35,855 nucleotides of DNA. Source: a virus. Within the stretch, counting starts at the first letter, position 1, and every line of letters begins with the position of its first letter. Position numbers and translations under genes: made by a program. Shown in pieces: positions 3,368-30,359 of the stretch. The stretch spans positions 1-35,855 of the IMG/VR virus record IMGVR_UViG_3300043446_003431. The stretch is one strand, 5' to 3'. The notes below the pieces were generated by a model. That model made no database searches, had not been told where the DNA came from, and saw only the letters and a list, made by a program, of their open reading frames with translations.

Positions 3368-6300
3368 ATGAACATTCATGAGCTGACTACCTTTAATCTT
3401 GCCGATGCAGTGCGATTTCATCGCCGTCTCAATCCCAGAATCTGGGGGCGAGACGAGCATTTACTGCCTGCGGTGCGTGAAAAACTCTTGGCCATAGCAG
3501 AGGACTTTCAAGAATTCTTGGGAGTGGAAGACCTTGATGTCCAAGATATCACTGTGTCAGGCAGCAACGCAGCCTACTCCTACACAAAAAACTCTGACAT
3601 TGATCTACACCTAGTGGTCAACATGCCAACAGATCCAGTGTACCAAGAATTGTTCACTGCAAAAAAATACCAATACAACGACGAGCATAACATAAAAATT
3701 GGCGGCGCTGACGTAGAATTGTACGTACAGCCTGCGGACCAGGCCCATCACAGCCAAGGCATTTATTCTATTCAAAACAACAAATGGATCAGTGTGCCCA
3801 AGCGTAAACGTGCGCAGATAGATGATGTGTGTGTGCGTGACAAAGTGGCATCCTTGGACGCTAGAATTCATTCCGCAGTGAAAAGTAAAAATCTTGAAGC
3901 CATTGTTCGACTATGGGACAAGATCAAAGCCATGCGGCAGATAGGGCTGGAACAGCACGGCGAGTTTGGCTGCGAAAACATTGCTTTTAAAATGTTGCGC
4001 AACTCAGGTTGTATCAAATTGTTGAAAGACACCAAGACTGAGTTGGAAGATCAGGCACTGAGTCTGCGTGAAGCAGACCGTCCACCAAAACGTTTCCGTT
4101 ATGGTTTTAGCGAAGACATCATGGATCCCACCCAGCAATCTTACAGTTCGGCTGACGGTGTGGCACCAACCACCAAATCTTTTTTGGAACACTCAGACTC
4201 TAACAGCAGTGATGTACAAGACTTTATTCAGCATGTCACAGCAGAATTGGGTATTGATCCATTACCAAAAATCCGGCTGCATACAGATCCTGACTGGAGC
4301 ACACATAATCACAGTTTTGGTCGTTATGATCCTGACACGCACACACTCAACGTCAGCATGCCCAATCGTCACATACTAGATGTACTGCGTACTGTGGCAC
4401 ATGAACTGGTGCATTGCAGTCAACATCAACAACATGGTGACATACCAGATGACGCAGGCGAAACCGGTAGTCGTTGGGAAAATGATGCCAATGCCCGAGC
4501 CGGCATCATCATGCGTGACTGGGCCAACACACATCCCGAACACTTTGCCCATGAGCCCTTGGAAGAAAATGCATCAGGCTATATTCCCAAAAACAAAAAG
4601 GAAGCAGCCATGCCGCAGTATGCCATGGCTCTTTCAGTGGACATCAAACCTGGTGAAGTGGGCAGACAGGCCAACAAATTAGCACTCAAAACTGGACGCA
4701 ATGGCGAGCCAGGCTTGTTACAGCCTGATGCACAAAATCTATTGCGTGAGTTCTCTGAGTTTGTGACAGAACAAGAAAACCTGTTTGAAATCTCCATGAG
4801 TCCCACAAGCCTGAAAAAACTCAGCGCACAAACTGGTGCCCTGGCCGGCATGGAGTTTGAAATGATTGTGCCTGGTGTTCGGGACGAAGATCAAGATCGA
4901 GAGCCCGACTATGACTACGATGAACGCACCAGGAGCATTGATGAAATCTGTGACTTCTTCAATGACGGAGATTTCAACGGTCGCAGACAGATTGATGATC
5001 TAAGACGCAGATTGACAAATTCTTATGAAGAGTGGGCCGAAGATCAAATTCAAGCAGAATGGGACAATCAAGGCCTGGCCCATGTGTATCAGTATGTAAA
5101 AAACAATGTAGACGATGACACCATCATTGAAGCCCTGGGCCTGGAACCTGATGAAGCGGGCGACCCTCCTGTGATAGGTCGTACAGATTACACACAATAT
5201 GCAGAACTCTGCATGGAAGAACAAAACGATGTCTATGACGAGGCTCTGCAGGAATTTCGCGACGAGTGGTTCAATGACTACAATCACGAAGACGACTGGC
5301 TGCAGAGTGAAGGCCTTGACTACATGAGCAATGTAGAACAGGAATACAGTGGCCTAGTGACATGGCCGCACTGGAATGATCCTGATGCTGGCGAAACAGA
5401 TGTGGAACAAGTGGCCGACAACTTCAGTGCTGCCATTGGTCGCAAGGTCAACTGGAGTCGTAACTATCACGGTGGTCGGCGAGAACCCAATGCCTATGTG
5501 GTGGAACCTGACAGCAGCCTGGACCCAGATGATCCCAATGATTCTGGCCTGGAGTTTGTGAGCCCGCCCCTGCCCATTGAAGAACTGTTGAGTGATTTGA
5601 ACACTGTGAAAGCATGGGCTGATAAGACAGGTTGCTATACCAACGACTCAACTGGCCTGCACATCAATGTATCAGTGCCGGGTTGGTCAGGAGACAACAA
5701 TCAGTTGGACTATGTCAAATTGGCTGTGTTGCTGGGTGATGAGTATGTGCTGGATGTGTTTGGTCGTGCAGGCAATACCTATGCCAAGTCAGCCATGGGC
5801 AAGATTCGCAGTATCATAAAACAAAACCCTGCCAAGGCAGAAGAACTGCTGACCAAAATGAAGTCAGGCATGGATCAACTGGCCAGCAAGGCCATACACT
5901 CGGGTTCAACAGAAAAATACACTTCAATCAACAACAAAACAGGCTACATTGAGTTCCGCTCACCAGGTGGCGACTGGTTAGATGCCAACTTTGACCAGAT
6001 TGAAAACACCTTGCGTAGATTCACAGTGGCCCTGAGTGCAGCCGTGGATCCTGAAGCCTACAGAAAAGAATACCTAAAGAAACTGTACAAGTTGTTGGAT
6101 GTTTCTAGCGAAAAAGATCCCTTGAGTTATTTTGCCAAATATGCCGCAGGTGAACTGCCCCGGGCTGCACTGAAGAGTTTTGTGCGTCAAGCTAGACTGG
6201 AACGTGAAGTCAAACGTGGCAAGGAAACAGGCCCAATGTGGTGGAAGGTTTCAAATCCACCACAAAGTTTTGCCAGTATCGAAGTGGTGGCAAGTTCACA

Positions 6301-7747
6301 GGAAGAAGCCATACAAAAAGCCCTGGGACCAGATGGCTATCCAAATTGGGCCAACACTATCAATTCAGTTGTGGCCGAACCTGTGCGTCCCTACAAACAA
6401 GAACCTGTTACCGCACCTGCTGCATCTACCGCAGTGCCAGCGGCTGGAGCGTCCACCACTGTGTCACATCCTGAAGGTCGCGGCAGACCACACGATCCCA
6501 CAGGACGTTATGCCATTGTGGCACGAAGTGATCGGGCAGCATATGGTCGCCGTGGCGGGCCTGCACCCTACTACTATTTTAGATTCAACATGGGTAATCT
6601 CGAAGATCAAGGTCATGGACGCGGTGTTCTACAGGCCTGGGCTGCAAGAAACAACGTCAATGCTGCTGATTACATGGTAGTGGATACCGAAGAATACGCT
6701 GACAGTGGTACTGCACAGGATCTCCCCAACCTCTTCCCAGACATACCAGCTGCCAACCCCACAGGTGAGTTCAATGGGCAATGGAAAGTTGTTGATGGTT
6801 TGGGTAGAGAAGTATATAGATTTGGCGGTGTGGGCAACAGTCAAGCAGATGCTAATAGAGTAGCCGCAACCTGGGCAAGAACCACAGGCTTTGATGGCAA
6901 CATTGAAGTATATCCGGTGATGGCGGAAAGCCTGCGTGAATATCGAATGCAACAGCCCAGTCATGGTCCAGGCGCAATAAAGGATTTGAACGAACCCTTG
7001 GGTCCAGAGTCACCACCCCAAATGCCCGACGGCACCATCAAAGTAGATGTGTCAGACATGTACGACTGGTACAAACTTGGCCAAAAGATATCAGATCTAG
7101 ACAGCATCCAACCAGGCGAACTGGGTTCTGGTCCCCCATCAACTGTATTTGCATTTGGTAGTGAAGACTTGGAAAACATGTACAGTCACCAACTCACAAG
7201 ACTGGGTTTGAAAACACATGACTTGGATGAACCAGGTGAAGAAGACATAGATGAGAACTTTGCTGATGGCAAGAATCCTGGACGCAAGGGTTTAGCCAAA
7301 CGTGTAGGGGTCAACACCAAAGCGTCAGTCAGCAGTTTGAGAAAAACTGCCAAGCACAGCTCGGGTGAAAAGCAACGCATGGCACATTGGTTGGCCAACA
7401 TGAAGGCCGGCAGAGCCAAGGCCAACAAAAGCAAAACCAACGAAGCAATCATAGGCTACTTGCACTTTCCCAACATCACTGTGGGAGTGGACGAACATGC
7501 AATTGAACGTGCTCAGACTCATGGCATTGATCCCAATCAAATTGACGCTTGTTTGAAAAAATTACAAAAAGTTGTGACTCAGTTATTGTCTATGGAACTA
7601 AACAATACAGTGTGGGTATATGATGCCAACACCAATGTCGCTCTAGGACTGCGTAGAATCAGCAGCACTGATCCTAAATTCAAACTAAAAACTGTGGTCA
7701 ATAACAGACCCTATGATGGTCAAACTCCTATAATAGACATACCATGA
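3368..7747 (+). CDS. Giant modular protein: nucleotidyltransferase, zincin, amidoligase-like and small C-terminal modules
   Basis: 1459 residues. Residues 1-235 look like a Pol-beta-type nucleotidyltransferase, with G65-S66 and S76-DIDLH. Residues 285-395 carry the zinc-protease motif HELVH (345-349) followed by GETGSRWENDANA, which could supply a third ligand. Residues 398-455 form a small module starting NASGYIPK. Residues 490-890 resemble an amidoligase (carboxylate-amine ligase): GMEFEMIVPG, SGLEFVSPPL, STGLHINVSVPG and GYIEFRSPGG. Residues 965-1185 hold three short alpha/beta modules; 1296-1350 a basic FADGKNPG...KAGRAK module; and 1360-1459 a compact domain with HAIERAQ. Hydrophobic-x-Glu triplets precede several modules (400/401, 474/475, 1187/1188, 1296/1297). 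Domain calls are by motif and memory, and the overall role is unknown; a packaged virion protein is my inference. Confidence 0.8.
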   Translation: MNIHELTTFNLADAVRFHRRLNPRIWGRDEHLLPAVREKLLAIAEDFQEFLGVEDLDVQDITVSGSNAAYSYTKNSDIDLHLVVNMPTDPVYQELFTAKKYQYNDEHNIKIGGADVELYVQPADQAHHSQGIYSIQNNKWISVPKRKRAQIDDVCVRDKVASLDARIHSAVKSKNLEAIVRLWDKIKAMRQIGLEQHGEFGCENIAFKMLRNSGCIKLLKDTKTELEDQALSLREADRPPKRFRYGFSEDIMDPTQQSYSSADGVAPTTKSFLEHSDSNSSDVQDFIQHVTAELGIDPLPKIRLHTDPDWSTHNHSFGRYDPDTHTLNVSMPNRHILDVLRTVAHELVHCSQHQQHGDIPDDAGETGSRWENDANARAGIIMRDWANTHPEHFAHEPLEENASGYIPKNKKEAAMPQYAMALSVDIKPGEVGRQANKLALKTGRNGEPGLLQPDAQNLLREFSEFVTEQENLFEISMSPTSLKKLSAQTGALAGMEFEMIVPGVRDEDQDREPDYDYDERTRSIDEICDFFNDGDFNGRRQIDDLRRRLTNSYEEWAEDQIQAEWDNQGLAHVYQYVKNNVDDDTIIEALGLEPDEAGDPPVIGRTDYTQYAELCMEEQNDVYDEALQEFRDEWFNDYNHEDDWLQSEGLDYMSNVEQEYSGLVTWPHWNDPDAGETDVEQVADNFSAAIGRKVNWSRNYHGGRREPNAYVVEPDSSLDPDDPNDSGLEFVSPPLPIEELLSDLNTVKAWADKTGCYTNDSTGLHINVSVPGWSGDNNQLDYVKLAVLLGDEYVLDVFGRAGNTYAKSAMGKIRSIIKQNPAKAEELLTKMKSGMDQLASKAIHSGSTEKYTSINNKTGYIEFRSPGGDWLDANFDQIENTLRRFTVALSAAVDPEAYRKEYLKKLYKLLDVSSEKDPLSYFAKYAAGELPRAALKSFVRQARLEREVKRGKETGPMWWKVSNPPQSFASIEVVASSQEEAIQKALGPDGYPNWANTINSVVAEPVRPYKQEPVTAPAASTAVPAAGASTTVSHPEGRGRPHDPTGRYAIVARSDRAAYGRRGGPAPYYYFRFNMGNLEDQGHGRGVLQAWAARNNVNAADYMVVDTEEYADSGTAQDLPNLFPDIPAANPTGEFNGQWKVVDGLGREVYRFGGVGNSQADANRVAATWARTTGFDGNIEVYPVMAESLREYRMQQPSHGPGAIKDLNEPLGPESPPQMPDGTIKVDVSDMYDWYKLGQKISDLDSIQPGELGSGPPSTVFAFGSEDLENMYSHQLTRLGLKTHDLDEPGEEDIDENFADGKNPGRKGLAKRVGVNTKASVSSLRKTAKHSSGEKQRMAHWLANMKAGRAKANKSKTNEAIIGYLHFPNITVGVDEHAIERAQTHGIDPNQIDACLKKLQKVVTQLLSMELNNTVWVYDANTNVALGLRRISSTDPKFKLKTVVNNRPYDGQTPIIDIP

Positions 7748-8172
7748 GAAACCTAATCAACCTTATTGAAGCCAAACAGCGTGGTTGTCCCTTGGCCACA
7801 CATGACATTGACGAGAATCTAAAGAATCGTCAACGAGCCATTGACGACTATCACTATGGCCCGGCCAATCCTGACCGCCCTGAAGACTACTGGCGCAAAA
7901 GTGCCAAGATATTCAAGGTCAGTGAAGCCACTGCCCGCACCATGCAGTGTGCCAACTGCGGTGCGTTTGATGTCAGTGACAGCATGCGTGAGTGTATCAG
8001 TGCAGGCATACGTGGTGATGAGACCGCGGTGGATGCCAATGCCAGCATCAACCTAGCAGACTTAGGCTACTGCAATTTTTTACACTTCAAGTGTGCAGGT
8101 GCTAGATCCTGCAAGGCCTGGATCACCGGCGGACCCATCACTGAAAAAGACAAGAATAAGTCAGCGGACTAA
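7744..8172 (+). CDS. Small Cys-rich phage protein, possible zinc ribbon
   Basis: 142 residues, starting inside the stop of the giant gene (ATGA overlap). The N-terminus MRNLINLIEAK places a hydrophobic-x-Glu triplet at residues 7-9, and DIDEN repeats the pattern at 22-25. The central part has CANCGAFD followed by further Cys residues (RECIS, GYCNF, FKCAG, RSCKAW), which could bind one or two zinc ions. I associate this family with T4-like marine phages but know no function. Its position in the modular run and its N-terminus fit the proposed capsid-targeted set. Confidence 0.75.
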   Translation: MRNLINLIEAKQRGCPLATHDIDENLKNRQRAIDDYHYGPANPDRPEDYWRKSAKIFKVSEATARTMQCANCGAFDVSDSMRECISAGIRGDETAVDANASINLADLGYCNFLHFKCAGARSCKAWITGGPITEKDKNKSAD

Positions 8173-8175
8173 ACT

Positions 8176-8751
8176 GTGCAACAACATGAATTCACTGCGG
8201 AAGCATCGCCCAACACCCTGGGTGGCAGTTTTACTCCTGATCTTGTAAACAGCAAGACATGGCTGTGCAATCAACTGCGAAAAGAACTGGGCGGCAGATC
8301 TGCCGGAGACATCTACATCCTGGGTTCATGGTACGGCAACCTGGGCATATTTTTGCAAGAAGCCAACATTGAATTTGATCGGCTGATCATGGTGGAAACT
8401 CGGCAACAACTGCTGGCCACTGCACGACGTCTGCTGGCACCCTTGTATCAACAGGGCAGACTGAAGTTGGTGCTGGGACTGGCTGAACGCATTGAATATC
8501 CACGCAAGAATTTCACAGTGATCAATACCAGTGTGAACGACATGCGTCGTACATGGTTGCAGCGTGTGCCTGATGACACACTGACAGTGATACAAGGGCG
8601 TAACAACCTAGACAATCCCCGAGTGGCCACTGATGGTGCGGCTCAATTCTACATGAAATTTCCTTTGGATCGCACTACATATTGGGGCGAACGACGACTG
8701 CGTGATCCTGAAACCCGCTACCGACGTTGGATGAAGATTGGCTATAAATAA
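8176..8751 (+). CDS. Class I methyltransferase-like phage protein
   Basis: 191 residues from a GTG codon; no better start is near. YILGSWYGNLGIFL resembles the glycine-containing SAM-binding loop of class I methyltransferases, and DRLIMVET fits the following acidic strand. The catalytic half is weak: no NPPY-type or Pro-Cys motif is present, and the C-terminus (RDPETRYRRWMKIGYK) is basic. A methyltransferase-like fold is inferred; enzymatic activity is not established. It lies between two genes of the modular run and ends just upstream of an exact TATAAATA. Confidence 0.6.
   Translation: MQQHEFTAEASPNTLGGSFTPDLVNSKTWLCNQLRKELGGRSAGDIYILGSWYGNLGIFLQEANIEFDRLIMVETRQQLLATARRLLAPLYQQGRLKLVLGLAERIEYPRKNFTVINTSVNDMRRTWLQRVPDDTLTVIQGRNNLDNPRVATDGAAQFYMKFPLDRTTYWGERRLRDPETRYRRWMKIGYK
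8743..8750 (+). promoter_or_regulatory. TATAAATA late-promoter-like motif
   Basis: An exact match to the T4 late promoter core overlaps the stop of the preceding gene. The ATG at 8758 lies seven bases downstream without a ribosome site. Confidence 0.55.
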
Positions 8752-8757
8752 ACAATC

Positions 8758-9105
8758 ATGACTTACAGGGAAATTCTTGAAGCCTGCTGGACTGGCTATC
8801 GCCGCAAACCTGGCACAACTGAGTACAGCAAAGGCAGTTGTGAAAAGATCCACGAGCGCGAACTGGAAGAAAATCTCCGTGACTGGTTTAAAGAAAAATG
8901 GGTTCGTTTTGGTCCCGACGGCAAGATCCGTGGTGACTGTGCTAGAGGATCGGAAAAGGAAGGCAAGCCTAAGTGTTTGCCCCAGGCCAAGGCGCACGCA
9001 CTGGGCCGAAAAGGGCGTGCATCAGCAGCGGCTAGAAAACGTAGACAAGATCCCAACCCCAACCGTACAGGAAAGGCCATCAACGTGGCCACTAAAAAGA
9101 AATGA
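8758..9105 (+). CDS. Small basic phage protein with capsid-targeting-like N-terminus
   Basis: 115 residues, strongly basic in the C-terminal half (RKGRASAAARKRRQDPN). The N-terminus MTYREILEAC resembles the T4 internal-protein capsid-targeting peptide as I remember it (MKTYQEFIAE), with the possible cut after E8. A second hydrophobic-x-Glu triplet (L36-E-E38) precedes NLRDWFKEKWVRFGPDGK, a module of a type I recall from T4-like phage proteins (xxKWVxxxxxGKxxG). No enzyme motif is visible. It overlaps the next gene by ATGA. A DNA-binding or packaged role is inference from charge and context. Confidence 0.7.
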   Translation: MTYREILEACWTGYRRKPGTTEYSKGSCEKIHERELEENLRDWFKEKWVRFGPDGKIRGDCARGSEKEGKPKCLPQAKAHALGRKGRASAAARKRRQDPNPNRTGKAINVATKKK

Positions 9106-10859
9106 TCATAGACGAACTATTTGAAGGCCCCCAACTGTGTCCCGAATGCGGTGGCATCAGTTTCTCAGACCTGATCCTGGCCGAGAAAAAAGACGCCTGC
9201 TACTACAAGGTAAAAGCGAGTGCCAAGGTATGGCCGTCGGCCTATGCATCTGGACGACTGGTTCAGTGCCGCAAAAAAGGTGCTGCCAACTATGGCAAGA
9301 GCAAGACGGAGAGTATTCGCGACCCCAACGAAATGAGTGGTGTAAACTCCATGCGTAAAAAATTAGGAAACATCATTAAACAAGCCGCACAGGATGATGA
9401 AGTTGCCTATAACGCATCAAAACTTTATCGAGAATTATGGAATATCTATGGTGGCGATATTGATGCAATCATTGCCGAAAGATCTATTTTTGAATTAGAA
9501 AAATTAGCAAGAGAATTAGTAGCAGTCAGCAAGCAAGGCATGGCGGAAGGCAAGGTCAAGCTCTACACCGATCCCAGTTATTTTGGTGCCGAAGTGGACG
9601 ACACAGGATTTGACAGTTTACCTGTTGTAAACATTCCCACAAATCGACTGGTAGGATTTGAACCTGACAGCAAAATGCAACAACCAAAAGCCATGGCCAA
9701 TGTTAAAAACATATTGGCAGGGCTAGAACAGGGTGACAACATTCCTCCTATTCTGGTACGCAAGTATAAAACTGGATATCAGGTATTAGATGGACATCAT
9801 AGATTCTGGGCCTACAAAGTGGCCAAGAAAGATAGTATACCCGCAAGAGTAGTCGATCCCAAAGACATTGAAGAAGTTGGTCAGCAAGGCATGGCGGAAC
9901 AGCAAGAACTGGACGAAAAGTGGAGCCAGAAGTATAAGAAGAGTATCAACTGTGCCAACCCTCGAGGCTTCAGCCAACGGGCACACTGTGCTGGTCGTAA
10001 GAAAAATGAAGACGTAGCAGAAGCTGGGCCTTCAAGAAGAGATCCATTAGACTATCCGCCGCTGGAAGGTCCTGGTGGCAGTGGTGCCGGCGGCTACACA
10101 GGTGGTCCTTCACCATTTCGTGGTATATTTGGCCGATCCAAAGAAGCACCTGTTACTGAACCCCAGTGGAACACTACAAAAATACCCGGAGTTGATATTC
10201 ATACTGGTCCTCCGCCCACAATAACAAAACCTCCAAACATCAATAAAAAAATAGATCCGGCGTCAGACGTACCTGCTTACGTAAGGCAAGGCGTACCTGA
10301 TCCTGTGACCTTACCCGTGGGCAAACCACGTATCACAGTTCGGCCTGGAGAAACTCAATCTCAAGCCATACAACGCACCCAGACCGAAAAAGAATTTGGT
10401 CAGTTTCTGCAAGGACAAAGCGGTCAAACTTTTGGTGCCGGTGCCGGCCGTGGTAACGTAAATCCAGAACCAGCAAAGACGCAAAAGTTTCCTGAACTTA
10501 AGACTGATACACAAGTCAAGTGGGATGAATTTAAACGCAAGCATGGTGTCGAACACCCTGACAAAATAGAATACGATACTAACAAAGCAGTGCAGGCAAT
10601 GTCTGACCGAGTAAAACAAAAAGGTCCGCCGCCAATTCCGGCAAAAAAACCATCATGGAAAACCCCTGACACTGATATTGAACTAGAAGGAGAGTCGCGT
10701 AAAAAACGTTCACAGCCCGAAGTTGATTACGATGACGAGTACGATGCCATGGTGGCCAGAGTGAAAAAGTTAGCAGGACTTGGTCCCTTGAAAACTGTGT
10801 ACGATCCCACCAAGCGTCAGTATCGCAACATGCCCACAGCCCAACAACCTAAAAAATGA
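9102..10859 (+). CDS. Modular phage protein with ParB-like domain
   Basis: 585 residues in modules: (a) N-terminal MIIDELFEG with a Phi-x-Glu site at 6-8, then a possible zinc knuckle (CPECGG); (b) residues 29-66, KKDACYYKVKASAKVWPSA, a module I recall from several phage proteins; (c) an AT-richer helical module, about 80-145; (d) a ParB/sulfiredoxin-like domain, about 151-258, with VLDGHHRFWAY as the GxxR-type box; (e) residues 273-301, KWSQKYKKSINCANPRGFSQ followed by a Cys-containing basic end; (f) a Pro/Gly-rich, probably disordered C-terminus. Phi-x-Glu triplets precede or separate modules at E28, E149, E266, E272 and E307. The ParB-like fold can bind nucleotides or DNA; the actual role is unknown. 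Confidence 0.75.
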   Translation: MIIDELFEGPQLCPECGGISFSDLILAEKKDACYYKVKASAKVWPSAYASGRLVQCRKKGAANYGKSKTESIRDPNEMSGVNSMRKKLGNIIKQAAQDDEVAYNASKLYRELWNIYGGDIDAIIAERSIFELEKLARELVAVSKQGMAEGKVKLYTDPSYFGAEVDDTGFDSLPVVNIPTNRLVGFEPDSKMQQPKAMANVKNILAGLEQGDNIPPILVRKYKTGYQVLDGHHRFWAYKVAKKDSIPARVVDPKDIEEVGQQGMAEQQELDEKWSQKYKKSINCANPRGFSQRAHCAGRKKNEDVAEAGPSRRDPLDYPPLEGPGGSGAGGYTGGPSPFRGIFGRSKEAPVTEPQWNTTKIPGVDIHTGPPPTITKPPNINKKIDPASDVPAYVRQGVPDPVTLPVGKPRITVRPGETQSQAIQRTQTEKEFGQFLQGQSGQTFGAGAGRGNVNPEPAKTQKFPELKTDTQVKWDEFKRKHGVEHPDKIEYDTNKAVQAMSDRVKQKGPPPIPAKKPSWKTPDTDIELEGESRKKRSQPEVDYDDEYDAMVARVKKLAGLGPLKTVYDPTKRQYRNMPTAQQPKK

Positions 10860-11248
10860 GAGCCCAAGAGTTTGTCACAGAAGGCCAAGACAAAGCACAG
10901 GCTGTGCGCAGAATACAGAAAATGCTCAATGACCGTTTTGACGCCAACTTGGATGTGGACGGTGTGTTGGGACCACTCACACAAAAAAGCATCAATCGCT
11001 TCATGCCCAGTGCCAGGCCTGCCCCAGCCGATGATCCCAGCCGACCCACTGCTGTACAAGGTCGACAATCCAAACAGTCTGACGATGAACAACTGGACGA
11101 GTTGAGTTTCCTGGGATCGGAATGCACCAAAGACTGTTCAGGTCACAGAGCCGGATATGAGTGGTCAAAACGCAAAGGCCTACGTCAGGCCAATTCATGG
11201 AGCCCCAGTTTCAACAAAGGTGCTGGCCTGGCAGTGGCTGGCAAATAA
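10856..11248 (+). CDS. Peptidoglycan-binding-like domain plus small phage module
   Basis: 130 residues. Residues 13-50 (AVRRIQKMLN, then DGVLGPLTQKSINRFM) fit the PG_binding_1 fold that holds cell-wall peptides. After a Pro/Gln-rich linker and the triplet L80-D-E82 comes LSFLGSECTKDCSGHRAGYE, a Cys-containing module I have seen repeatedly in T4-like phage proteins. The first residues, MRAQEFVTEG, again resemble a capsid-targeting peptide with a possible cut after E9. It overlaps the previous gene by ATGA. A wall-binding, virion-associated function is plausible but not proven. Confidence 0.7.
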   Translation: MRAQEFVTEGQDKAQAVRRIQKMLNDRFDANLDVDGVLGPLTQKSINRFMPSARPAPADDPSRPTAVQGRQSKQSDDEQLDELSFLGSECTKDCSGHRAGYEWSKRKGLRQANSWSPSFNKGAGLAVAGK

Positions 11249-11277
11249 TCCCAAAAAGTTACCCACGTAGATTTTGC

Positions 11278-11283
11278 TAAATA
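11278..11283 (+). promoter_or_regulatory. TAAATA late-promoter-like motif
   Basis: CTAAATATTCT lies in the 39-base gap before the gene at 11288. Only four bases separate the motif from the ATG and no ribosome site is present. Confidence 0.45.
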
Positions 11284-11287
11284 TTCT

Positions 11288-11593
11288 ATGCAAACTTATT
11301 TTGTTAGTGTGGAGTGTGATGTTACTGCCAAGGTACAGGCAGAACCTTTTCGTTATCGTGCCTACATCAACAATGAACTTTTTACTGAACGTACATGGAT
11401 TTGGACTGATTCATACCTACAAGAAAATTTTCAAATACAGGCATCCCCAGGCGTTTATACCATACGATTTGAACCTGTGGACAGTGACCATGGACGCATT
11501 AAAGTACGCAACCACAGAGTGATGGTTGGTCCAGGAAAAATTATCGATTATCAAGGTCAAACTGCTGTGGAGATATTAGATGCGGGCGTGTGA
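11288..11593 (+). CDS. Small all-beta phage hypothetical protein
   Basis: 101 residues with alternating hydrophobic strands (QTYFVSVECDVTAKVQ, FRYRAYINNELF, VYTIRFEPVDSD), suggesting a small beta-sandwich. No catalytic motif, signal peptide or membrane segment is visible. The ATG is four bases after a TAAATA motif. Its end overlaps the following gene by 14 bases. I recall similar small proteins in T4-like phages but no function. Confidence 0.65.
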   Translation: MQTYFVSVECDVTAKVQAEPFRYRAYINNELFTERTWIWTDSYLQENFQIQASPGVYTIRFEPVDSDHGRIKVRNHRVMVGPGKIIDYQGQTAVEILDAGV

Positions 11594-11798
11594 AATTGTA
11601 GAATCAGCGTCAGCTGGCGCCACTGCCGCCGGTGGTATAGCACCAGTAAGCATGCCCATGGGCGTGATATCAAGATCTGGAGGTTCTATGCTGTCAGGTA
11701 AATATACAACAGGTTCGGATCCTACGCCCAACACGCCCAAAGAATACAAGAGGAACAAAAATGCTCGCGGACAGTTTAAAAACTCTATTAGCAACTGA
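11580..11798 (+). CDS. Small phage protein with capsid-targeting-like N-terminus
   Basis: 72 residues: MRACEIVESA, then a Gly/Ala/Ser-rich segment (SAGATAAGGIAPVSMPMG) and a basic end. The triplet I6-V-E8 at the N-terminus matches the T4 prohead-protease consensus (L/I)xE. GGAG at 11569-11572 lies seven bases before the ATG and supports the start. The gene overlaps both neighbours, which argues for a real translated frame in this operon. Function unknown; small internal head proteins have this kind of layout. Confidence 0.6.
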   Translation: MRACEIVESASAGATAAGGIAPVSMPMGVISRSGGSMLSGKYTTGSDPTPNTPKEYKRNKNARGQFKNSISN

Positions 11799-12204
11799 AT
11801 ATGCGTTCAGTATCAAGGCCCAGTTATTTCACTGGAACGTGGAAGGACCGGACTTTGCACAACTGCATGAGTTTTTTGGCAATCTATATGAAGAAGTCTA
11901 CAACGGTAGCATAGACAAAACCGCAGAGTACATACGTGCCATGGGTGACTACTCACCAGGCAGTTTTGAACGATTTGCTGAACTCAGCATCATACAGGGA
12001 CAAACCAAAATTCCACGAGCCCGACTCATGATTGAAGAACTCTTGGCCAACAATGGTCAACTCTTAGAATTACTCAATGACACTTTTGCTGTGGCTGAAC
12101 AAGAAAATCAACAGGGCATTGCCAACTTCATTGCCGAACGCATTGATGCACATCAGAAACATGCATGGATGCTGAGAAGTTTCTTGAAAGACCAGCGAGC
12201 ATGA
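11761..12204 (+). CDS. dps: Dps-like ferritin family protein
   Basis: 147 residues, mostly helical, close to the usual Dps length (150-200). The ferroxidase ligands expected for Dps are all present: H24 in LFHWNVEGP, H36 in QLHEF, and D52 and E56 in SIDKTAE. The C-terminal helix IAERIDAHQKHAWMLRSFL also fits. Dps forms 12-subunit shells that bind DNA, oxidise iron and blunt peroxide damage. Its N-terminal tail is short, so direct DNA binding is uncertain. AGAGG about seven bases before the ATG supports the start, which overlaps the previous gene by 38 bases. A TAAATA at 11699-11704, inside the upstream gene, might serve it. Confidence 0.85.
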   Translation: MLADSLKTLLATEYAFSIKAQLFHWNVEGPDFAQLHEFFGNLYEEVYNGSIDKTAEYIRAMGDYSPGSFERFAELSIIQGQTKIPRARLMIEELLANNGQLLELLNDTFAVAEQENQQGIANFIAERIDAHQKHAWMLRSFLKDQRA

Positions 12205-13457
12205 GCAACGACATCAGATCAATCTTGGACCGATTGGCCACAGTGGAAGGCCGATTAACACCTGGACAACAACGGGTGCCACAACTGCCTGCACTGTTCA
12301 AACCACGCCATGTTCGTGCCCTGGGCTCAAAAACAGATCCTGCCCATCCCATGGACGGATACATGGTGGGCGACAGTGTAGAGCCTAAAAAAACTGCACT
12401 AGAAGAAGCCATGGCAGAAATTGAAGAGGACATGCTGAGCAAGGTCAAAAAAGATCTCACACAATACCTGGATCGCTTGGAAAAGAAAGTGCGTGTAGAT
12501 CGCGACTTGAAAGACAAAGCTAGAGATGCTGTGGGGCGGGGCGAGGCCGAAGAAGAGATCGAAGAGTTTGCACCACCTGGTGATGATGACAGCGGACCTG
12601 GCGAAGAAGAAATACTGCGTCGTCTGGCTGCACAGTGGTGGCACGGCGACGAAGATCCCCGAGCCGAACGTGCGCTGGCAGCCATGGGTTGGGAAATTGG
12701 TCAAGATGAAAGCGGCGATGACGATGCCGGAGTATTCCTTGTACGTGCTGGAGATATCAATGGCAACAGTTACATGGCGTTTAACCAGAGTGATTTAAAT
12801 GTATTAGATGAACTTGATTACTCTGCCGGATCAAATGCCACAGCACAGCCAAGTGTCAACCAGCAGGCACAAACTGCCGGCAATGCCATTAAGACATATA
12901 TGCCTGCTGCGACCAAATTTGCTGCCGGCACCGTAAGACAAATGAAGGGTCAAGACCCAACCAAAGATCCTGCATACGCTAAATTGTCCCCAGCACAGCA
13001 ACAACAATATGTTCAAGCACAAAAAACCATTGATTCTACTGATGCTGATGAATTAGAAAAATTTGATGCCAATCAAGCAGCAGCAAATATTCAAGGAGTT
13101 GCCAAAACATTACCTAATCCGGCCAACATGCCTGATGTCAACTTGAAATCCAATGTTGTTGATCGTAAGACGGCCGCTGACTATGCTCCGGCCACTGTCA
13201 GCGGTAAACCAGCCACATCACCAGAGTCTGCAACAAAGCCTGATGCACCTGCTGCCACGTTTGAAATGGCGGATGGCAAATCCTTAAGTTGTTATGGCAA
13301 TGATAACGAAGGTTATGAACTGCGTCACGGTGACCGTCGGCTGCCAAGTCGTTTCAAAAATCTCGACGATGCTGGCATGGCTGTCAAACTGTATCAGGCA
13401 CGGCGGCGTCAACAGAGCCAGCAAGACCTTGGCCAAGATTACATAGAAGAACGATAA
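12201..13457 (+). CDS. Conserved T4-like phage protein, acidic
   Basis: About 418 residues, taking the ATG that overlaps the Dps stop (ATGA); a longer frame starting at 12165 would lie inside dps. The N-terminus MSNDIRSILDRLATVEGR, then VPQLPALFKPRHVRALGSKT and DPAHPMDGYMVG, matches a family I recall in T4-like cyanophages. A coiled-coil-like acidic stretch (ALEEAMAEIEEDMLSKVKK) is followed by an acidic DDDSGPGEE linker and a second globular part (RRLAAQWWHGDEDPR). The last third is Ala/Gln/Thr-rich and partly AT-richer in codon use, ending in a small compact module (LSCYGNDNEGYELRHGDRRL). Function unknown; a virion or prohead role is inferred from context. Confidence 0.75.
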   Translation: MSNDIRSILDRLATVEGRLTPGQQRVPQLPALFKPRHVRALGSKTDPAHPMDGYMVGDSVEPKKTALEEAMAEIEEDMLSKVKKDLTQYLDRLEKKVRVDRDLKDKARDAVGRGEAEEEIEEFAPPGDDDSGPGEEEILRRLAAQWWHGDEDPRAERALAAMGWEIGQDESGDDDAGVFLVRAGDINGNSYMAFNQSDLNVLDELDYSAGSNATAQPSVNQQAQTAGNAIKTYMPAATKFAAGTVRQMKGQDPTKDPAYAKLSPAQQQQYVQAQKTIDSTDADELEKFDANQAAANIQGVAKTLPNPANMPDVNLKSNVVDRKTAADYAPATVSGKPATSPESATKPDAPAATFEMADGKSLSCYGNDNEGYELRHGDRRLPSRFKNLDDAGMAVKLYQARRRQQSQQDLGQDYIEER

Positions 13458-13459
13458 TC

Positions 13460-14695
13460 ATGATCATCAACGATTTATTCATAAACAAAAAACTGAACAT
13501 GGCAGAAGCACTGACTGATTATCAACGTCGTCGCCAACGTGAGCGTGATGTGGATGCCGGCAAACCTGTAAAGCCTGAACCAAAGAATCCACAGAATGAC
13601 TATTTTGCTCGACGCAAAAAAGAAAAAGAGCAAGGTGTGGCGGAAGATGATGGGTTCAATGTGGTCAGTAACTATCAAACTCAACAAAGTACTGATACAG
13701 GAAATAAAGTAGCAAAGACTTACACCGGTACCACTGTTCAGAAAAACCCTGCAACTGGACAACAAAAATCATTGGCCAAATGGGATCACACTGATCCTGC
13801 CACTGGAAAAAATTATTCAGGCTCCAATTACATTGATGCCGAAGGCAACGTGGAAACACAAAAGAATTACGAAGAAAGCAAAAACAAAGTCAATGAAGTC
13901 AGCCTGGGTGACTATCGTAAAAAAGCCGCAGTGAGTCAAGCAGGTGCCAAGATAGACCGATTCTTTGGCCGTGATGATCCTGCAGCGGTTGCGGCTGCTG
14001 ATAAGACCATTGCCAAAAGACAGCAAGGCCTGGCACGTGCTGATGCAAGGATAAAGCCATATACACCTCCCAAACTTGACGCTGAAAAATATCAGCGTGA
14101 TTTGACAGCCAAATATCCCAACATTGATGAATTGGTGGCCGACGCTGAGCGCAATCGTGATCCCTATTACGATCGTGCCGAAGGTGAAGCATACTATCGT
14201 GGCCGCGACGCCGAACATAACTATCACAGACTCAAACAAATACAACGCATGATCCGTGGTGCAGAGTTAGACGAAATGAATTTTGGCGGCGTAGATCAGA
14301 CCACAGATTCTAACACTGGCGATATAACCACAAGGTTTAATCAAGGTCCAATGTCTGTGTCTCAGACCAAAACACCAGGTGGATACACAAAACAAACTGA
14401 TCAAAAATTTGATCTAGGCACAGCAACACTGGGCAACCGAACCGTTGGTCCCAATGTGGCAGCTGGACAGTTAGCCGGTACCACAACTAAAACTGCCACA
14501 AACAACATTACCGGGAAAACACAACAACAAGTCAAAGGAGTGGGTTTTGGTGGTGCCACAGGCGCCACAGTAGGCAAAAACTATGTTGGCGCCAGTGATG
14601 ACGACCTGGCACGATTGGCAGCCGACAGTTTTACTGGAATCAATGAAAGTGTAAACCATTTAAGACATCTAGCCGGAATCAAACCTGTTAGATAA
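13460..14695 (+). CDS. Modular, low-complexity phage protein with repeated Phi-x-Glu sites
   Basis: 411 residues, largely polar and probably disordered. The N-terminus carries NMAEAL (M14-A-E16), then GVAEDD (60-63), NKVNEVSLGDY (144-151), ELDEMNFGG (269-277) and INESVNHLRHLAGI (394-407), each a hydrophobic-x-Glu followed by a distinct segment. VSLGDYRKKAAVSQAGAKID is a module I recall from other phage proteins. Residues 280-380 are Gly/Thr-rich repeats reminiscent of fibre-like or linker sequence. No enzyme motif. It ends the modular run, just before the promoter-bearing gap at 14696-14831. Confidence 0.7.
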   Translation: MIINDLFINKKLNMAEALTDYQRRRQRERDVDAGKPVKPEPKNPQNDYFARRKKEKEQGVAEDDGFNVVSNYQTQQSTDTGNKVAKTYTGTTVQKNPATGQQKSLAKWDHTDPATGKNYSGSNYIDAEGNVETQKNYEESKNKVNEVSLGDYRKKAAVSQAGAKIDRFFGRDDPAAVAAADKTIAKRQQGLARADARIKPYTPPKLDAEKYQRDLTAKYPNIDELVADAERNRDPYYDRAEGEAYYRGRDAEHNYHRLKQIQRMIRGAELDEMNFGGVDQTTDSNTGDITTRFNQGPMSVSQTKTPGGYTKQTDQKFDLGTATLGNRTVGPNVAAGQLAGTTTKTATNNITGKTQQQVKGVGFGGATGATVGKNYVGASDDDLARLAADSFTGINESVNHLRHLAGIKPVR

Positions 14696-18801: not shown

Positions 18802-19524
18802 ATGAGAGATTATCTTAAAGACTTGGTAGAACACACACATGATCTTGGCTGTATTGACTTGGTCAAGATCACTGGAGATGACAAAAACACAGCCATTGTG
18901 GGCGTAGCAGAAGATTTGTCAGTGGTGCTGGAAGGCACATTCAAACAGCCTGTGGCAGAGTTTGCAGGCACATTTGGCATGCCTAACTTGGCCAAACTCA
19001 AAATTTTATTGAACTTGCAGGAATATCGCGAAGATGCCAAACTGACCTTGAGCAAAAAAGCCACTGGTGCACCTGATGGTATAGAATTTGAAAATGCTCA
19101 TGGTGATTTCCGCAACAATTACAGATTCATGGCAGCAGAGATTGTGAACGACAAACTCAAGACGCCCAAGTTCAAAGGTGTGCCATGGCACATAGAATTT
19201 GAACCAACTGTGGCTGCCATTCAGCGACTGCGCATGCAGGCACAGGCCAATGCCGAACAGCCCAACTTTCAGGCTAGAACCGAAAATGGCGACTTGAAGT
19301 TTTTCTTTGGCGATCACAGCACACACGCAGGCAACTTTGTATTCCATCCTGGAGTCACAGGTCAACTCAAACGCACATGGTCATGGCCGGTTGTACAGGT
19401 CATAAACATTCTAGCACTCACAGGCGACAAAACCATTCGCATCTCAGATGATGGTGCTGCACAAATCACTGTAGATTCTGGCATTGCTGTCTACAACTAT
19501 ATCTTGCCAGCACAGAGCAAATGA
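18802..19524 (+). CDS. 45: DNA polymerase sliding clamp, T4 gp45 type
   Basis: 240 residues, near the T4 gp45 length (228). The pattern of alternating strands and helices fits a two-domain clamp: MRDYLKDLVEHTHDL, GTFGMPNLAKLKILLN and, at the end, DGAAQITVDSGIAVYNYILP. GTFGMPNLAKL corresponds to the loop-helix I associate with gp45. The trimeric ring holds the polymerase on DNA and, in T4, also activates late transcription, which fits the late-type TAAATA motifs here. It has its own sigma70-like promoter and TAGGAGTA site. Its stop overlaps the start of the next gene. Confidence 0.9.
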   Translation: MRDYLKDLVEHTHDLGCIDLVKITGDDKNTAIVGVAEDLSVVLEGTFKQPVAEFAGTFGMPNLAKLKILLNLQEYREDAKLTLSKKATGAPDGIEFENAHGDFRNNYRFMAAEIVNDKLKTPKFKGVPWHIEFEPTVAAIQRLRMQAQANAEQPNFQARTENGDLKFFFGDHSTHAGNFVFHPGVTGQLKRTWSWPVVQVINILALTGDKTIRISDDGAAQITVDSGIAVYNYILPAQSK

Positions 19525-19730
19525 TGGAAACCAAACAACGAACCATTGCAAGAATGATCACTTATAGAATCACTGCTTGGTTGTTTACCATTGGTTGGAC
19601 TTATATGTTCACTGGTAATCTTTCAAATGCCACAGGCTTTGCCACTGCATTACATATTTTATTGAGCATCGACTACTACATCCATGAACGCATATGGTTA
19701 AAAATCAAGTGGGGCCAAATTGCAGGATAA
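19521..19730 (+). CDS. DUF2061-type small membrane protein
   Basis: 69 residues. RTIARMITYRITAWLFTIGW, then TGNLSNATGFATALHILLSI and YYIHERIWLKIKWG, follow the DUF2061 pattern: a basic N-terminus, two hydrophobic segments that probably cross the membrane, and a YYxHERxW end. The family's function is unknown. Tandem ATGs at 19521 and 19524 overlap the clamp stop, and either may be used. It sits between the clamp and the DNA-modification genes, whose start it overlaps. Confidence 0.8.
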   Translation: MMETKQRTIARMITYRITAWLFTIGWTYMFTGNLSNATGFATALHILLSIDYYIHERIWLKIKWGQIAG

Positions 19731-21246
19731 TTTAACCGCCAAACAGAATGATTACGCTGTGTTTTTACCAGCCATATCAGGTTTCTATGCCACGTTTGTG
19801 GGCAGGCAACGCAACGAACAGTATGTAGATCCTGCACGTATGCCTGTGGGTCTCACAGACATGGAACAGATGAACTGGCTCAACAGCCAGAAAGCCTTGT
19901 TCCCATATCGTTGGAGCCTGTATTCAGCAGGGCATGCCAACTTGGATCTCAACAAACAGGATTGGTCAGAAGACATGGTTCGATCACGTGAACCCGGCAC
20001 GTTCTTGTTGGGCGATTCTGGTGGATTCCAAATCGCCAAGGGTCTGTGGGAAGGTGACTGGAAAGCCAACTCAGGTTGTCCCAAGGCACAGAAAAAGCGT
20101 GATGCTGTACTAAAATGGTTGGACAATCTTGCTGATTATGGCATGATACTTGACATCCCTACCTGGGTCATACATGACAAAAAAGCCGGCAAAGCCTGTG
20201 GTATCACCACCTTGGAGCAGGCTGTTGCTGCCACCAAGTTCAACAATGAATATTTCATGCAGCATCGCAAAGGTAAAAACAATGGCGGTGCGAAATTTTT
20301 AAACGTGCTTCAAGGCGCCAATCATACCGACGCTGATCGTTGGTATGACTTGATGAAGGAATACTGCGATCCACAAAAGTACCCAGACCGACACTTTGAC
20401 GGTTGGGCCATGGGCGGACAGAACATGTGTGATGTGCACTTGATCCTGCGCAGATTGATTGCACTCAAATACGATGGCTTGTTGCAGGAAGGTGTACATG
20501 ACTGGATGCACTTCTTGGGCACATCAAAGTTGGAATGGGCTGTGCTACTCACCGTGATTCAAAGGGCTGTAAGAAAGTATGTTAACCCTGCTTTCACTAT
20601 CTCTTTTGATTGTGCCAGTCCATTCCTCGCCACTGCCAATGGTCAGGTGTACTATCAAATTGACACCACACACAATCAAAAGTGGAGTTACAGAATGTCG
20701 CCAATTGTGGATGACAAAAAGTATGCTGCCGATACTAGACCCTATGGCCAGGCCGCTGTGGCGGAAGGTTGGGTACCTTGTTTTGATGAGTCTCCCATAA
20801 GTTCCATGTTGACCTTGAAAGATATTTGTATCTACAAGCCAGGCGATCTAAATAAAAATGGCAAGGAAGGCAAAACATCATGGGACAGTTTCTCATATGC
20901 CTTGCTCATGGGTCACAACGTTTGGACACACATTGAAGCTGTGCAACGTGCCAATAGAGACTTTGATTCAGGCACATGGCCCTACATGATGTGGTATGAA
21001 AATGGTGACCATGCCAAGTTTGCAGACCTTGTGGAGGCTATATTTGCTGCACCCACAAGAGAAGCCAGTGAAGCCATTATTGAAAAATATGACCTGTACT
21101 GGATGGACATTGTGGGCACCCGAGGAGACAAAGGCAAAAAAGCCAAAAATGCCAAGACTCAGTTCAATGTGCTGTTTGAGTACGAACAGACTGAGCAAGA
21201 AGATTTTGATGCCAGCAAACTTGATAACTTGGAGAAGTCAGTATGA
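19720..21246 (+). CDS. dpdA: DpdA-like DNA guanine transglycosylase
   Basis: 508 residues, TGT superfamily. Matches to the TGT fold are GDSGGFQ (98-104, with D99 as the base-recognising Asp), LQGAN (197-201), GWAMGGQ (228-234), HFLGT (264-268) and SFDCASPF (295-302), where D297 would be the nucleophile. The CxCxxC zinc site near the end of tRNA TGTs is absent, and the sequence as a whole resembles phage DpdA, which swaps guanine in DNA for a 7-deazaguanine. The best start is TTG, since no ATG occurs before residue 41; it overlaps the DUF2061 gene. folE, queD-like and queE genes downstream supply the expected precursor. A tRNA substrate is the alternative, but context argues for DNA. Confidence 0.85.
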   Translation: MQDNLTAKQNDYAVFLPAISGFYATFVGRQRNEQYVDPARMPVGLTDMEQMNWLNSQKALFPYRWSLYSAGHANLDLNKQDWSEDMVRSREPGTFLLGDSGGFQIAKGLWEGDWKANSGCPKAQKKRDAVLKWLDNLADYGMILDIPTWVIHDKKAGKACGITTLEQAVAATKFNNEYFMQHRKGKNNGGAKFLNVLQGANHTDADRWYDLMKEYCDPQKYPDRHFDGWAMGGQNMCDVHLILRRLIALKYDGLLQEGVHDWMHFLGTSKLEWAVLLTVIQRAVRKYVNPAFTISFDCASPFLATANGQVYYQIDTTHNQKWSYRMSPIVDDKKYAADTRPYGQAAVAEGWVPCFDESPISSMLTLKDICIYKPGDLNKNGKEGKTSWDSFSYALLMGHNVWTHIEAVQRANRDFDSGTWPYMMWYENGDHAKFADLVEAIFAAPTREASEAIIEKYDLYWMDIVGTRGDKGKKAKNAKTQFNVLFEYEQTEQEDFDASKLDNLEKSV

Positions 21247-26377: not shown

Positions 26378-26402
26378 CACTGCAATCTAAATAGTGTACA
26401 AT
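26374..26402 (+). promoter_or_regulatory. Sigma70-type promoter of folE
   Basis: TTGACA (26374-26379), a 17-base spacer and TACAAT (26397-26402) precede GGAGA (26411-26415) and the ATG at 26420. A TAAATA (26388-26393) lies inside the spacer, so an early-type and a late-type promoter may overlap here. Confidence 0.75.
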
Positions 26403-26419
26403 TGCACATTGGAGAACAC

Positions 26420-27115
26420 ATGCAAGAAAAAAACTTATCACAGGTCATACGTGAGCAGATGCAACGCACTGGCAAAAGATTTTGGGCTGGTGACAACATC
26501 AGTGAATACATTCATTCCGCTGACAAAGAACGCTTGATTGACGAAGCCACTGCGGCATTTGAATCAGTGCTGGATGCCTTGTTGATTGACCGCGAAACTG
26601 ATCCCAACAGCAAGGGCACAGCACGGCGTTTGGCCAAGATGTACTACAACGAAATAATGGCAGGAAGATATGAAGCACCCCCAGATTGCACCGCTTTTCC
26701 CAATGACTCAGCAGACCGCTACGAAGGCATGTTGGTGGTGCGTAGTGAGTTACGTAGTATGTGCAGTCATCATCATCAGCCTGTTAGTGGTGTTGCCTAC
26801 ATCGGAATTATCGCTGCACAAAAACTTATTGGTTTGTCTAAGTATACTCGTATTGCTCAGTGGTGCGCTCGGCGCGGTACTTTGCAGGAAGAACTGTGCA
26901 TAGACATTGCCAATGCCATAGAAAAGGCCACTGACAGTCATGATGTTGGTGTATACATACAGGCCACACATGGCTGTTGTGAGAATCGTGGCATCATGGC
27001 ACACTCCAGTCTCACACAGACCACAGTGTTGCGTGGTGCGTTCAAAGACGATGCCAGTGTGAAAAAAGAGTTCATGGACAATATCAAACTGCAACAAGAA
27101 TTTGCACCACGATAA
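26420..27115 (+). CDS. folE: GTP cyclohydrolase I
   Basis: 231 residues, close to E. coli FolE (222). The zinc site is C115 in MCSHHHQP with H118, plus C186 or C187 in THGCCENRG. IGLSKYTRIAQWCARRGTLQ is the substrate-binding core and ATHGCCENRGI the closing motif. The enzyme turns GTP into dihydroneopterin triphosphate, the first step of 7-deazaguanine and of folate synthesis. With queD-like and queE genes downstream and dpdA upstream, the DNA-modification pathway is the likely use. GGAGA at 26411-26415 fixes this ATG rather than a TTG 18 bases earlier. It has its own consensus-like promoter. The next small gene starts at the stop (TAATG). Confidence 0.93.
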   Translation: MQEKNLSQVIREQMQRTGKRFWAGDNISEYIHSADKERLIDEATAAFESVLDALLIDRETDPNSKGTARRLAKMYYNEIMAGRYEAPPDCTAFPNDSADRYEGMLVVRSELRSMCSHHHQPVSGVAYIGIIAAQKLIGLSKYTRIAQWCARRGTLQEELCIDIANAIEKATDSHDVGVYIQATHGCCENRGIMAHSSLTQTTVLRGAFKDDASVKKEFMDNIKLQQEFAPR

Positions 27116-27446: not shown

Positions 27447-27872
27447 TTGATTAAAGAATTTATAGACATAGTTGAAAGCGTCACGTTGGCAGAAAATGCT
27501 GTGCATAAATTTGCCAGTATGGCACATGAACAGTGGCGTCGTAATTTTGATCCTACTGGAACTAAATCTCGCATTAAAAAGAACAGCGATGGTACCGAAG
27601 GCGATATCAATGTTCCTTTTGATAAACTTCACCCTGACTGGCAACGAGAAAATCTTGCCGCAGGACAGGCAGCTGAACAGGCAGTAAAAAAATTTCCAGA
27701 TGATATTGAAAAGGCTGCCGAGTACATTCATATCGAATGGATGAAACGCAATCCCAAGGCAGATTATAATGCGGCACAACATGTACCCTACGATCAATTG
27801 CCGGAAGATGAAAAGGAAAAAGATCGAGTACATGTACGTACTATGATGTCTCTTTTAGGACTTAAGAAATAA
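27447..27872 (+). CDS. RyR-like repeat protein with capsid-targeting-like N-terminus
   Basis: 141 residues from TTG, backed by an AAGGAG site. The N-terminus MIKEFIDIVESVTLAENAVH has Phi-x-Glu at I8-V-E10 and again at L14-A-E16, like the modular proteins at 7744-14695. Two similar halves follow: AHEQWRRNF ... VPFDKLHPDWQREN and IHIEWMKRN ... VPYDQLPEDEKEKDRVHV, both resembling the RyR repeat (HxxW ... yxxLxexeKexDr), a ligand-binding fold also found in phage proteins. Its ligand is unknown. Codon use is AT-richer than in folE. It lies two bases before the next gene. Confidence 0.7.
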   Translation: MIKEFIDIVESVTLAENAVHKFASMAHEQWRRNFDPTGTKSRIKKNSDGTEGDINVPFDKLHPDWQRENLAAGQAAEQAVKKFPDDIEKAAEYIHIEWMKRNPKADYNAAQHVPYDQLPEDEKEKDRVHVRTMMSLLGLKK

Positions 27873-29822: not shown

Positions 29823-30359
29823 ATGTCAGACGATTTTAATTTTGATACAACACGCACATGGCGTTCAACAAAGCAATACAAATACACATCAACCAAAGAA
29901 TATCATGATGCATTTCCCTGTGCGTATCGCCAATGGCGTGCAGACAGCCACTGCAATCTGATACATGGTTACAGTTTTTCAATGAAGTTTTACTTTGGCA
30001 CAGACAACCTGGATGTACGCAACTGGGCTGCCGATTATGGAGGTCTCAAAGAACTCAAGTCTGTGTTGGAAGATCAGTTTGATCACACCTTGCTGGTCAG
30101 TCAAGATGATCCTGAATTTGAAACTTTCTTGTTGCTACAAGAAAAGAAGTTGGCCAAACTAACCATACTGCCTAGAGTGGGCTGTGAAGGCCTGGCAGAC
30201 ATGCTGTACAAGTATGTCAACGGTGTGTACATACCTGACTACTGGGGACCAGGCGAAGCCGAACGTCTTTGGTGTTATCGTGTGGAAGTGCGTGAAACAC
30301 AATCAAACATGGCCTTCCGTGAGGGTCATAGAGAATGGAATGAGGATTTATTTGCATGA
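29823..30359 (+). CDS. queD: 6-carboxytetrahydropterin synthase-like protein (QueD variant)
   Basis: 178 residues, longer than E. coli QueD (about 120). FPCAYRQWRADSHCNLIHGY (31-50) aligns with the active-site region FxAAHxL...CxxLHGHN, with C44 as the catalytic Cys, and FDHTLLV matches the FDHxxL motif. Two positions that are normally zinc-binding His read Tyr (Y35, Y50), a pattern I recall from a FPCAxRQ...HGY subfamily annotated as QueD; H43 and H48 could contribute. The family turns dihydroneopterin triphosphate into 6-carboxytetrahydropterin, the substrate of QueE. It has a possible promoter of its own and overlaps the next gene by ATGA. Confidence 0.85.
   Translation: MSDDFNFDTTRTWRSTKQYKYTSTKEYHDAFPCAYRQWRADSHCNLIHGYSFSMKFYFGTDNLDVRNWAADYGGLKELKSVLEDQFDHTLLVSQDDPEFETFLLLQEKKLAKLTILPRVGCEGLADMLYKYVNGVYIPDYWGPGEAERLWCYRVEVRETQSNMAFREGHREWNEDLFA

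Follow-up and report, generated by a model that had tools for sequence, protein, structure and literature searches.

The internal proteins of bacteriophage T4 (IPI, IPII and IPIII), together with Alt, carry a short N-terminal peptide that ends in hydrophobic-x-Glu (phi-x-E) and are small and basic once mature; they are cut by a gp21-type protease, and gp23 is cut at a similar site. In T4, this capsid targeting sequence (CTS) uses separate positions for targeting and for processing, and the latter is inhibited when the cut position holds Asp (PMC9026906). We analyzed a 35,855-bp virus fragment from IMG/VR (IMGVR_UViG_3300043446_003431, hereafter the window), in which a group of genes lying mainly between 3368 and 14695 encodes proteins that resemble the T4 internal proteins in the N-terminal peptide and probably in the other respects, with gp21 and a predicted gp23 site known here from relatives. 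However, each T4 protein stands alone and is cut once, at its terminus (Alt has two cuts), whereas those of the window contain many unrelated modules in series, every seam bears a site, and the modules are shuffled among genes; the CTS is also often one or two residues shorter than that of T4. We interpret them, with a probability of roughly 0.7, as mosaic cargo polyproteins of a jumbo phage of the T4 superfamily, targeted to the capsid and processed by gp21.

Other described systems resemble this one in part. Many head proteins of phiKZ and SPN3US (protease gp175/gp245) are processed after x-x-Glu, with propeptides that are cut repeatedly. However, the site there is A-x-E or S/A/G-x-E, the mapped cuts remove N-terminal propeptides, and shuffled site-bounded modules are not described (PMC5694885, PMC10052503); the seams examined here do not follow that motif, their P3 residue being mostly V, L, I, M or F. 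Polyvalent proteins are multidomain, are thought to enter with the DNA, include metallopeptidase, NTase and ParB-like domains, and have been proposed to be processed, but in the sections of PMC5512222 considered here processing is ascribed mainly to built-in metallopeptidases, with no mention of prohead-protease border sites or a CTS. The cyanophage structural protein T4-GC0119/gp114 (phrog_727), encoded between gp16 and gp17, has KKDACY, NLRDWF and KWSQK modules in common with the window; it is annotated merely as structural or hypothetical, and we found no polyprotein interpretation of it. We regard the system as an extension of the T4 internal-protein system, for which no published description was found in a search that was thin on subscription journals and preprints.

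The family B DNA polymerase of the window is 43-50% identical to those of jumbo myoviruses (Sinorhizobium phage Phosso, Agrobacterium phage Atu_ph07, the PBECO4 group) and 75-88% identical to those of at least 80 uncultivated contigs. One of these, G003 (364 kb), carries a T4-type head cassette of portal, gp21, gp22 and gp23. The original prediction, made from the sequence of the window, had listed N-termini resembling a CTS, and every one is present (7744, 8758, 9102, 10856, 11580 and 27447), as is a site near the start at 13460; the T4 peptide it quoted is also correct, ipII and ipIII starting MKTYQEFIAE↓A (the arrow marks a cut, predicted for all proteins of the window and its relatives). 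An additional candidate at 8176 had been overlooked. When phi-x-E is loosely allowed to end anywhere from residue 7 to 11, 6 of the 10 genes in 7744-14695 match (p = 9e-5 for a region picked post hoc, with the doubtful 12165 counted among the six), as do 11 of 41 across the window (p = 9e-4). Among 322 non-redundant proteins from related loci (the modB set), phi-x-E ends at residue 8 in 34 and at residue 9 in 48, versus 5.8, so that these two positions stand far above the others. Similarly, a CTS profile trained on two sets of loci and applied to unseen proteins of a third, split by 8-mer overlap, matched 20 of 167 held-out N-termini and none of 594 internal Met windows, with 0.8 matches expected from shuffles. 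When N-termini are aligned across related phages, as had been proposed, orthologues retain a peptide of about 10 residues with a phi-x-E end, as in a T4-type CTS, while the remainder diverges; a G003 example, MRAQEFIAE↓D, is close to the ipII/ipIII peptide. The motif alone is no proof, because a sliding-clamp-like protein (18802-19524) that starts MRDYLKDLVE↓H, likely a false positive, matches it by chance. The profile is also lineage-specific, since cyanophage CTS peptides score low on it, and cyanophages were scored with a T4-derived pattern instead.

The second line of evidence concerns the interior of the proteins, where phi-x-E had been noticed directly before recognizable modules. All of the quoted sites exist, although two of them, LEE↓NASGYIP and IDE↓NFADGK, sit in 3368-7747 and thus outside the interval originally given. 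Across phages, the coincidence of module borders with phi-x-E is strongly non-random in position. Counting non-redundant contexts with unrelated upstream sequence, phi-x-E stands at -1 in 31 of 35 contexts of NFADGK, 29 of 32 of KWSQKYKK and 13 of 13 of LSFLGSEC, versus a background of 1-2.5% per position, and the residue before these three modules is E in 82 of 82 contexts and D in none. For NFADGK, about 70 distinct upstream contexts are found, and the homology start follows E in all. The motif also precedes KKDACY in 13 of 23 contexts and, with a one-residue shift, NLRDWF in 16 of 28. Contexts of KKDACY that lack it occur in L106, L111, L115, L120 and L158, records that are too short to be informative or in which no gp21 was detected and that possibly represent another phage type. 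In an unbiased test of BLAST boundaries, 458 of 2842 boundaries of high-scoring segment pairs (HSPs) fell at phi-x-E versus 73.2 expected, and 93 at phi-x-D. HSP starts lie in phi-x-E zones for 54% (3368), 78% (8758) and 63% (9102), versus 11-18% expected, and for 0 of 88 in the neighboring 12165 protein, an internal control that is not CTS-led in orthologues; the same test is weak or small for 10856 (2/22) and 13460 (7/16). At the seams, P3 varies in both residue and codon while remaining mostly hydrophobic, which indicates selection at the protein level. A DNA-level recombination motif at the seam is not favored, as the P3 codons vary. We consider both capsid targeting and the placement of the seams well supported.

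Modules found internally also occur directly behind a CTS, both NFADGK (MRINELLE↓NFADGK, MRAKEFITE↓NFADGK) and others (MRAEEFVSE↓KWSRKYKR, MRITDVITE↓KCWKGY). This pattern would also be expected if only the N-terminal site were cut and the internal phi-x-E were fossils of gene fusion, CTS remnants of once separate genes that are unprocessed today; all but one of the cuts mapped in SPN3US are, in fact, removals of N-terminal propeptides (PMC10052503). We judge such a history unlikely, since the seams hold P1 and P3 near 100% while losing the hydrophobic P4 and P6, in a polar linker enriched in A/D/N at P2, which is unlike neutral decay, and since E is never D in the 82 contexts. P4 is hydrophobic at a frequency of 0.41 at N-terminal sites versus 0.08 at seams, and P6 is likewise hydrophobic only N-terminally. 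By analogy with the separate positions of the T4 CTS, this difference is as expected if the interior sites serve processing and not targeting. The start of homology at phi-x-E in every context could also be a conserved first turn of the folded modules themselves, unconnected to proteolysis. This we hold to be very improbable: at least four unrelated modules share phi-x-E and would each need an independent origin, KKDACY occurs both with and without it, unrelated N-terminal peptides end in the same motif, and in a structure model of NFADGK the first ten residues are predicted to be poorly ordered, with helices starting at residue 22.

A gp21-like protease, which was to be sought elsewhere in the genome, is encoded by close relatives and not by the window. 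The matches in G002 and G003 have E-values of about 1e-24, and the G003 protein aligns with T4 gp21 (PDB 5jbl, E 3e-14) and retains GEVDHP and GVSSRG, the counterparts of T4 GELNHP and GVSSRG. Alignment predicts that mature gp23 would start after YLKE↓N in G003 and after PLME↓N in Atu_ph07. Given gp21 in these relatives and the analogy with T4, the putative assignment of the protease to the gp21 type is strong; judging from their sequences, the seams also appear to point to gp21 and not to a built-in metallopeptidase such as the HELVH motif seen by eye in the 3368 protein might represent.

Packaging in virions, as originally proposed, is supported by virion mass spectrometry that another group published on cyanophage S-CREM2 (PMC10665884 Table 3; genome OR473000), through both CTS enrichment and homologous proteins. 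A strict pattern of the four functional T4 CTS positions matched 5 of 28 detected non-core proteins and 1 of 167 undetected ones (p = 2.4e-4, an optimistic value, as the pattern, with positions taken from T4, was written after viewing the first part of S-CREM2); the five are a SAM hydrolase, an APH kinase, a cytidylyltransferase, ORF13 and ORF136. A looser rule gave 8 of 28 versus 15 of 167 (p = 0.007). Among the detected proteins, ORF156 is a homologue of the NTase domain in the 3368 protein (35% over 227 aa, E 4e-42), and ORF160 (L275:24843-25736) is a mosaic with consecutive NLRDWF, CWTG and KKDACY modules. In Atu_ph07, CDS 31-76 form a virion cluster by mass spectrometry (PMC6102473). This cluster holds a tandem array (L267:39484-49507) of proteins led by M[RK]W-QL[TN]E, in which nine paralogues share 17-38% identity with the first, have invariant M1, W3, Q5, L6 and E8 and, by motif only, look ADP-ribosyltransferase-like. 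One array member, AUZ94865 (L267:39484-41820), has a CTS, a zeta-toxin-like kinase domain (Pfam) after VTE↓ and the end ITE↓TSSAGSTGAGNVATTNG.

Two further features had been overlooked. Some modules, immediately or shortly after phi-x-E, copy the N-arm of the phage's own major capsid protein. The S-SM2 copy, FLKE↓TPTNSVGNGGYTSAGGQTVAGYD, matches gp23 IAE↓QPTNAVGNGGYTSSGGQTVAGFD with a score of 110 (next best 39-41), and S-CREM2 ORF160 matches the gp23 N-arm of S-CREM2 with 95 versus 41. Scores are lower for AUZ94865 of Atu_ph07 (44 versus 35) and for the 11580 protein, which scores 40 as the top match in the window for the Atu_ph07 arm and ranks second with the G003 arm (38 versus 40); in G003, searched with its own arm, a low-complexity match (49) outscores the N-arm copy (41). 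From these comparisons, the proposed N-arm copies appear strong in cyanophages and suggestive in the jumbo lineage. Copies were noted at 11580-11798 of the window, L250, L003:5686-6114, S-CREM2 ORF160 and AUZ94865.

The second feature is an LxxLAG tail. The C-termini of gp22 read LKRLAGL in G003 and LKRLAGIKK in Atu_ph07, T4 gp22 being without it, and in the polyproteins at 9102 and 13460 the corresponding stretches, close to the end, are KKLAGLG and LRHLAGIKPVR. The motif is found in 18 of 1693 non-redundant proteins versus 1.4 in shuffles, a set that includes gp22 itself and small unrelated proteins. A tail in common with gp22 would suit scaffold or core components that, as with T4 gp22 and gp67, gp21 cuts so that they leave the head, instead of cargo, and T4 core proteins are indeed cut into several fragments (PMC9026906). 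That role seems quite unlikely to us, as homologues remain in mature virions (ORF156 and ORF160 of S-CREM2), enzyme domains occur in many CTS proteins, and the modules are basic. The tail of gp22 (L085, L270) and of the cargo polyproteins is a possible second loading signal.

Concerning content, Pfam searches of 108 CTS-led proteins returned cytidylyltransferase-like, GNAT, superoxide dismutase, deaminase, lysozyme/chitinase, sigma region 4, NUDIX and nuclease domains, so the predicted cargo is a mixed enzyme repertoire. For some modules, however, a structural or DNA-binding role is more likely than that of an enzymatic effector, given the net charge of +5 to +16 of the small ones and the N-arm copies. 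Profile searches with the small modules yielded no recognizable relative, and structure models of NFADGK (pLDDT 77) and LSFLGSEC (pLDDT 88) gave no convincing match in the PDB.

Several observations weigh against cargo polyproteins cut by gp21. The literal counting test of the original prediction is weak because raw phi-x-E counts barely exceed those of shuffles (25 versus 24.2, 12 versus 8.1, 6 versus 3.4). KKDACY and NLRDWF lack phi-x-E in 10 of 23 and 12 of 28 contexts, the copy of the 3368 polyprotein in the window has no clear CTS, and the N-terminus at 13460 is degenerate. A loose test over the Atu_ph07 virion clusters is borderline (p = 0.05), with one tandem array carrying most of the signal. 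The window encodes no gp21, although a fragment cannot decide its presence in the whole phage, and no cleavage products have been observed.

Within the window, all genes of the system lie on the (+) strand. The gene at 3368..7747 encodes a 1459-aa polyprotein that unites several effector-type domains: an NTase-like domain (phrog_36119) and HELVH (by eye), with LEE↓NASGYIP (cut 4568) followed by an amidoligase-2 domain and the basic IDE↓NFADGK (cut 7256). It is followed by 7744..8172 (142 aa; MRNLINLIE↓A, cut 7771; position-specific scoring matrix [PSSM] score 13.9), whose CTS is kept in orthologues, and by 8176..8751 (191 aa, GTG start), whose possible CTS, QQHEFTAE↓A (cut 8203), is absent from some orthologues and whose product, judged by eye, may resemble a SAM-methyltransferase. 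The gene at 8758..9105 combines a CTS and CWTG module, MTYREILE↓ACWTG (cut 8782), with a basic LEE↓NLRDWF module (cut 8872; net +16), both modules being present in S-CREM2 ORF160. The 585-aa polyprotein at 9102..10859 carries MIIDELFE↓G (9126), LAE↓KKDACYY (9186), a ParB-like MAE↓GKVKLY (9549), MAE↓QQE (9900), LDE↓KWSQKYKK (9918) and the LAG tail DAMVARVKKLAGLG close to its C-terminus. At 10856..11248, MRAQEFVTE↓G (10883) precedes a weak peptidoglycan-binding-like domain and LDE↓LSFLGSEC (11102), and at 11580..11798 (72 aa) MRACEIVE↓S (11604) precedes SASAGATAAGGIAPVS, the segment that is similar to the N-arm of mature gp23. The 411-aa polyprotein at 13460..14695 starts MIINDLFINKK and contains MAE↓ALTDYQ (13508; the NMAE↓A originally noted, at residue 16), VNE↓VSLGDY (13898), LDE↓MNFGG (14276) and a scaffold-like tail, INE↓SVNHLRHLAGIKPVR (cut 14648). 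More distant, 27447..27872 (141 aa, TTG start) has a CTS-like MIKEFIDIVE↓S (27477) with a weaker PSSM score (7.1).

Other genes of the window were noted in passing. A Ferritin/Dps-like protein (11761-12204; PF00210, E 3e-23) adjoins the cargo block, is conserved, with 73 relatives among the loci compared, and lacks a CTS. Tgt/DpdA-like (19720-21246), GTP cyclohydrolase-like (26402-27115), QueD-like (29823-30359) and QueE-like (33938-34783) genes, recognized by inspection, make 7-deazaguanine DNA modification probable. Rfam and tRNA scans across the window gave no matches.

In the proposed mechanism, the short N-terminal peptide would dock each precursor on the prohead core, as the T4 CTS does, and the gp21-type protease would cut after phi-x-E, which would both take off the peptide and split the internal modules from one another. 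These modules, often small and basic, would remain in the head together with the DNA, and some may accompany it into the cell, so that one gene could supply several small proteins within the particle. Cleavage at the internal seams, module release, injection and the individual functions are what we infer. Because any module preceded by phi-x-E could be released, modules could recombine freely in evolution, which would produce mosaic polyproteins whose seams coincide with protease sites. More tentatively, the head-maturation protease may act as a general polyprotein processor for a mobile library of cargo modules shared by phage lineages, each site-bounded and N-terminally tagged, in which some modules would expose a capsid N-arm copy after cleavage as a docking signal for the inner shell and others would use LxxLAG as a second loading signal.

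If true, these findings would provide a sequence rule for spotting head-borne proteins, and their cut sites, among the many uncharacterized proteins of T4-superfamily phages, jumbo phages and cyanophages, and knowledge of the cut sites would let module functions be tested singly. They would also account for the mosaic phrog_727/3477 proteins, make natural cargo tags other than the T4 CTS available, and give prohead proteases a role in polyprotein processing in addition to capsid maturation.

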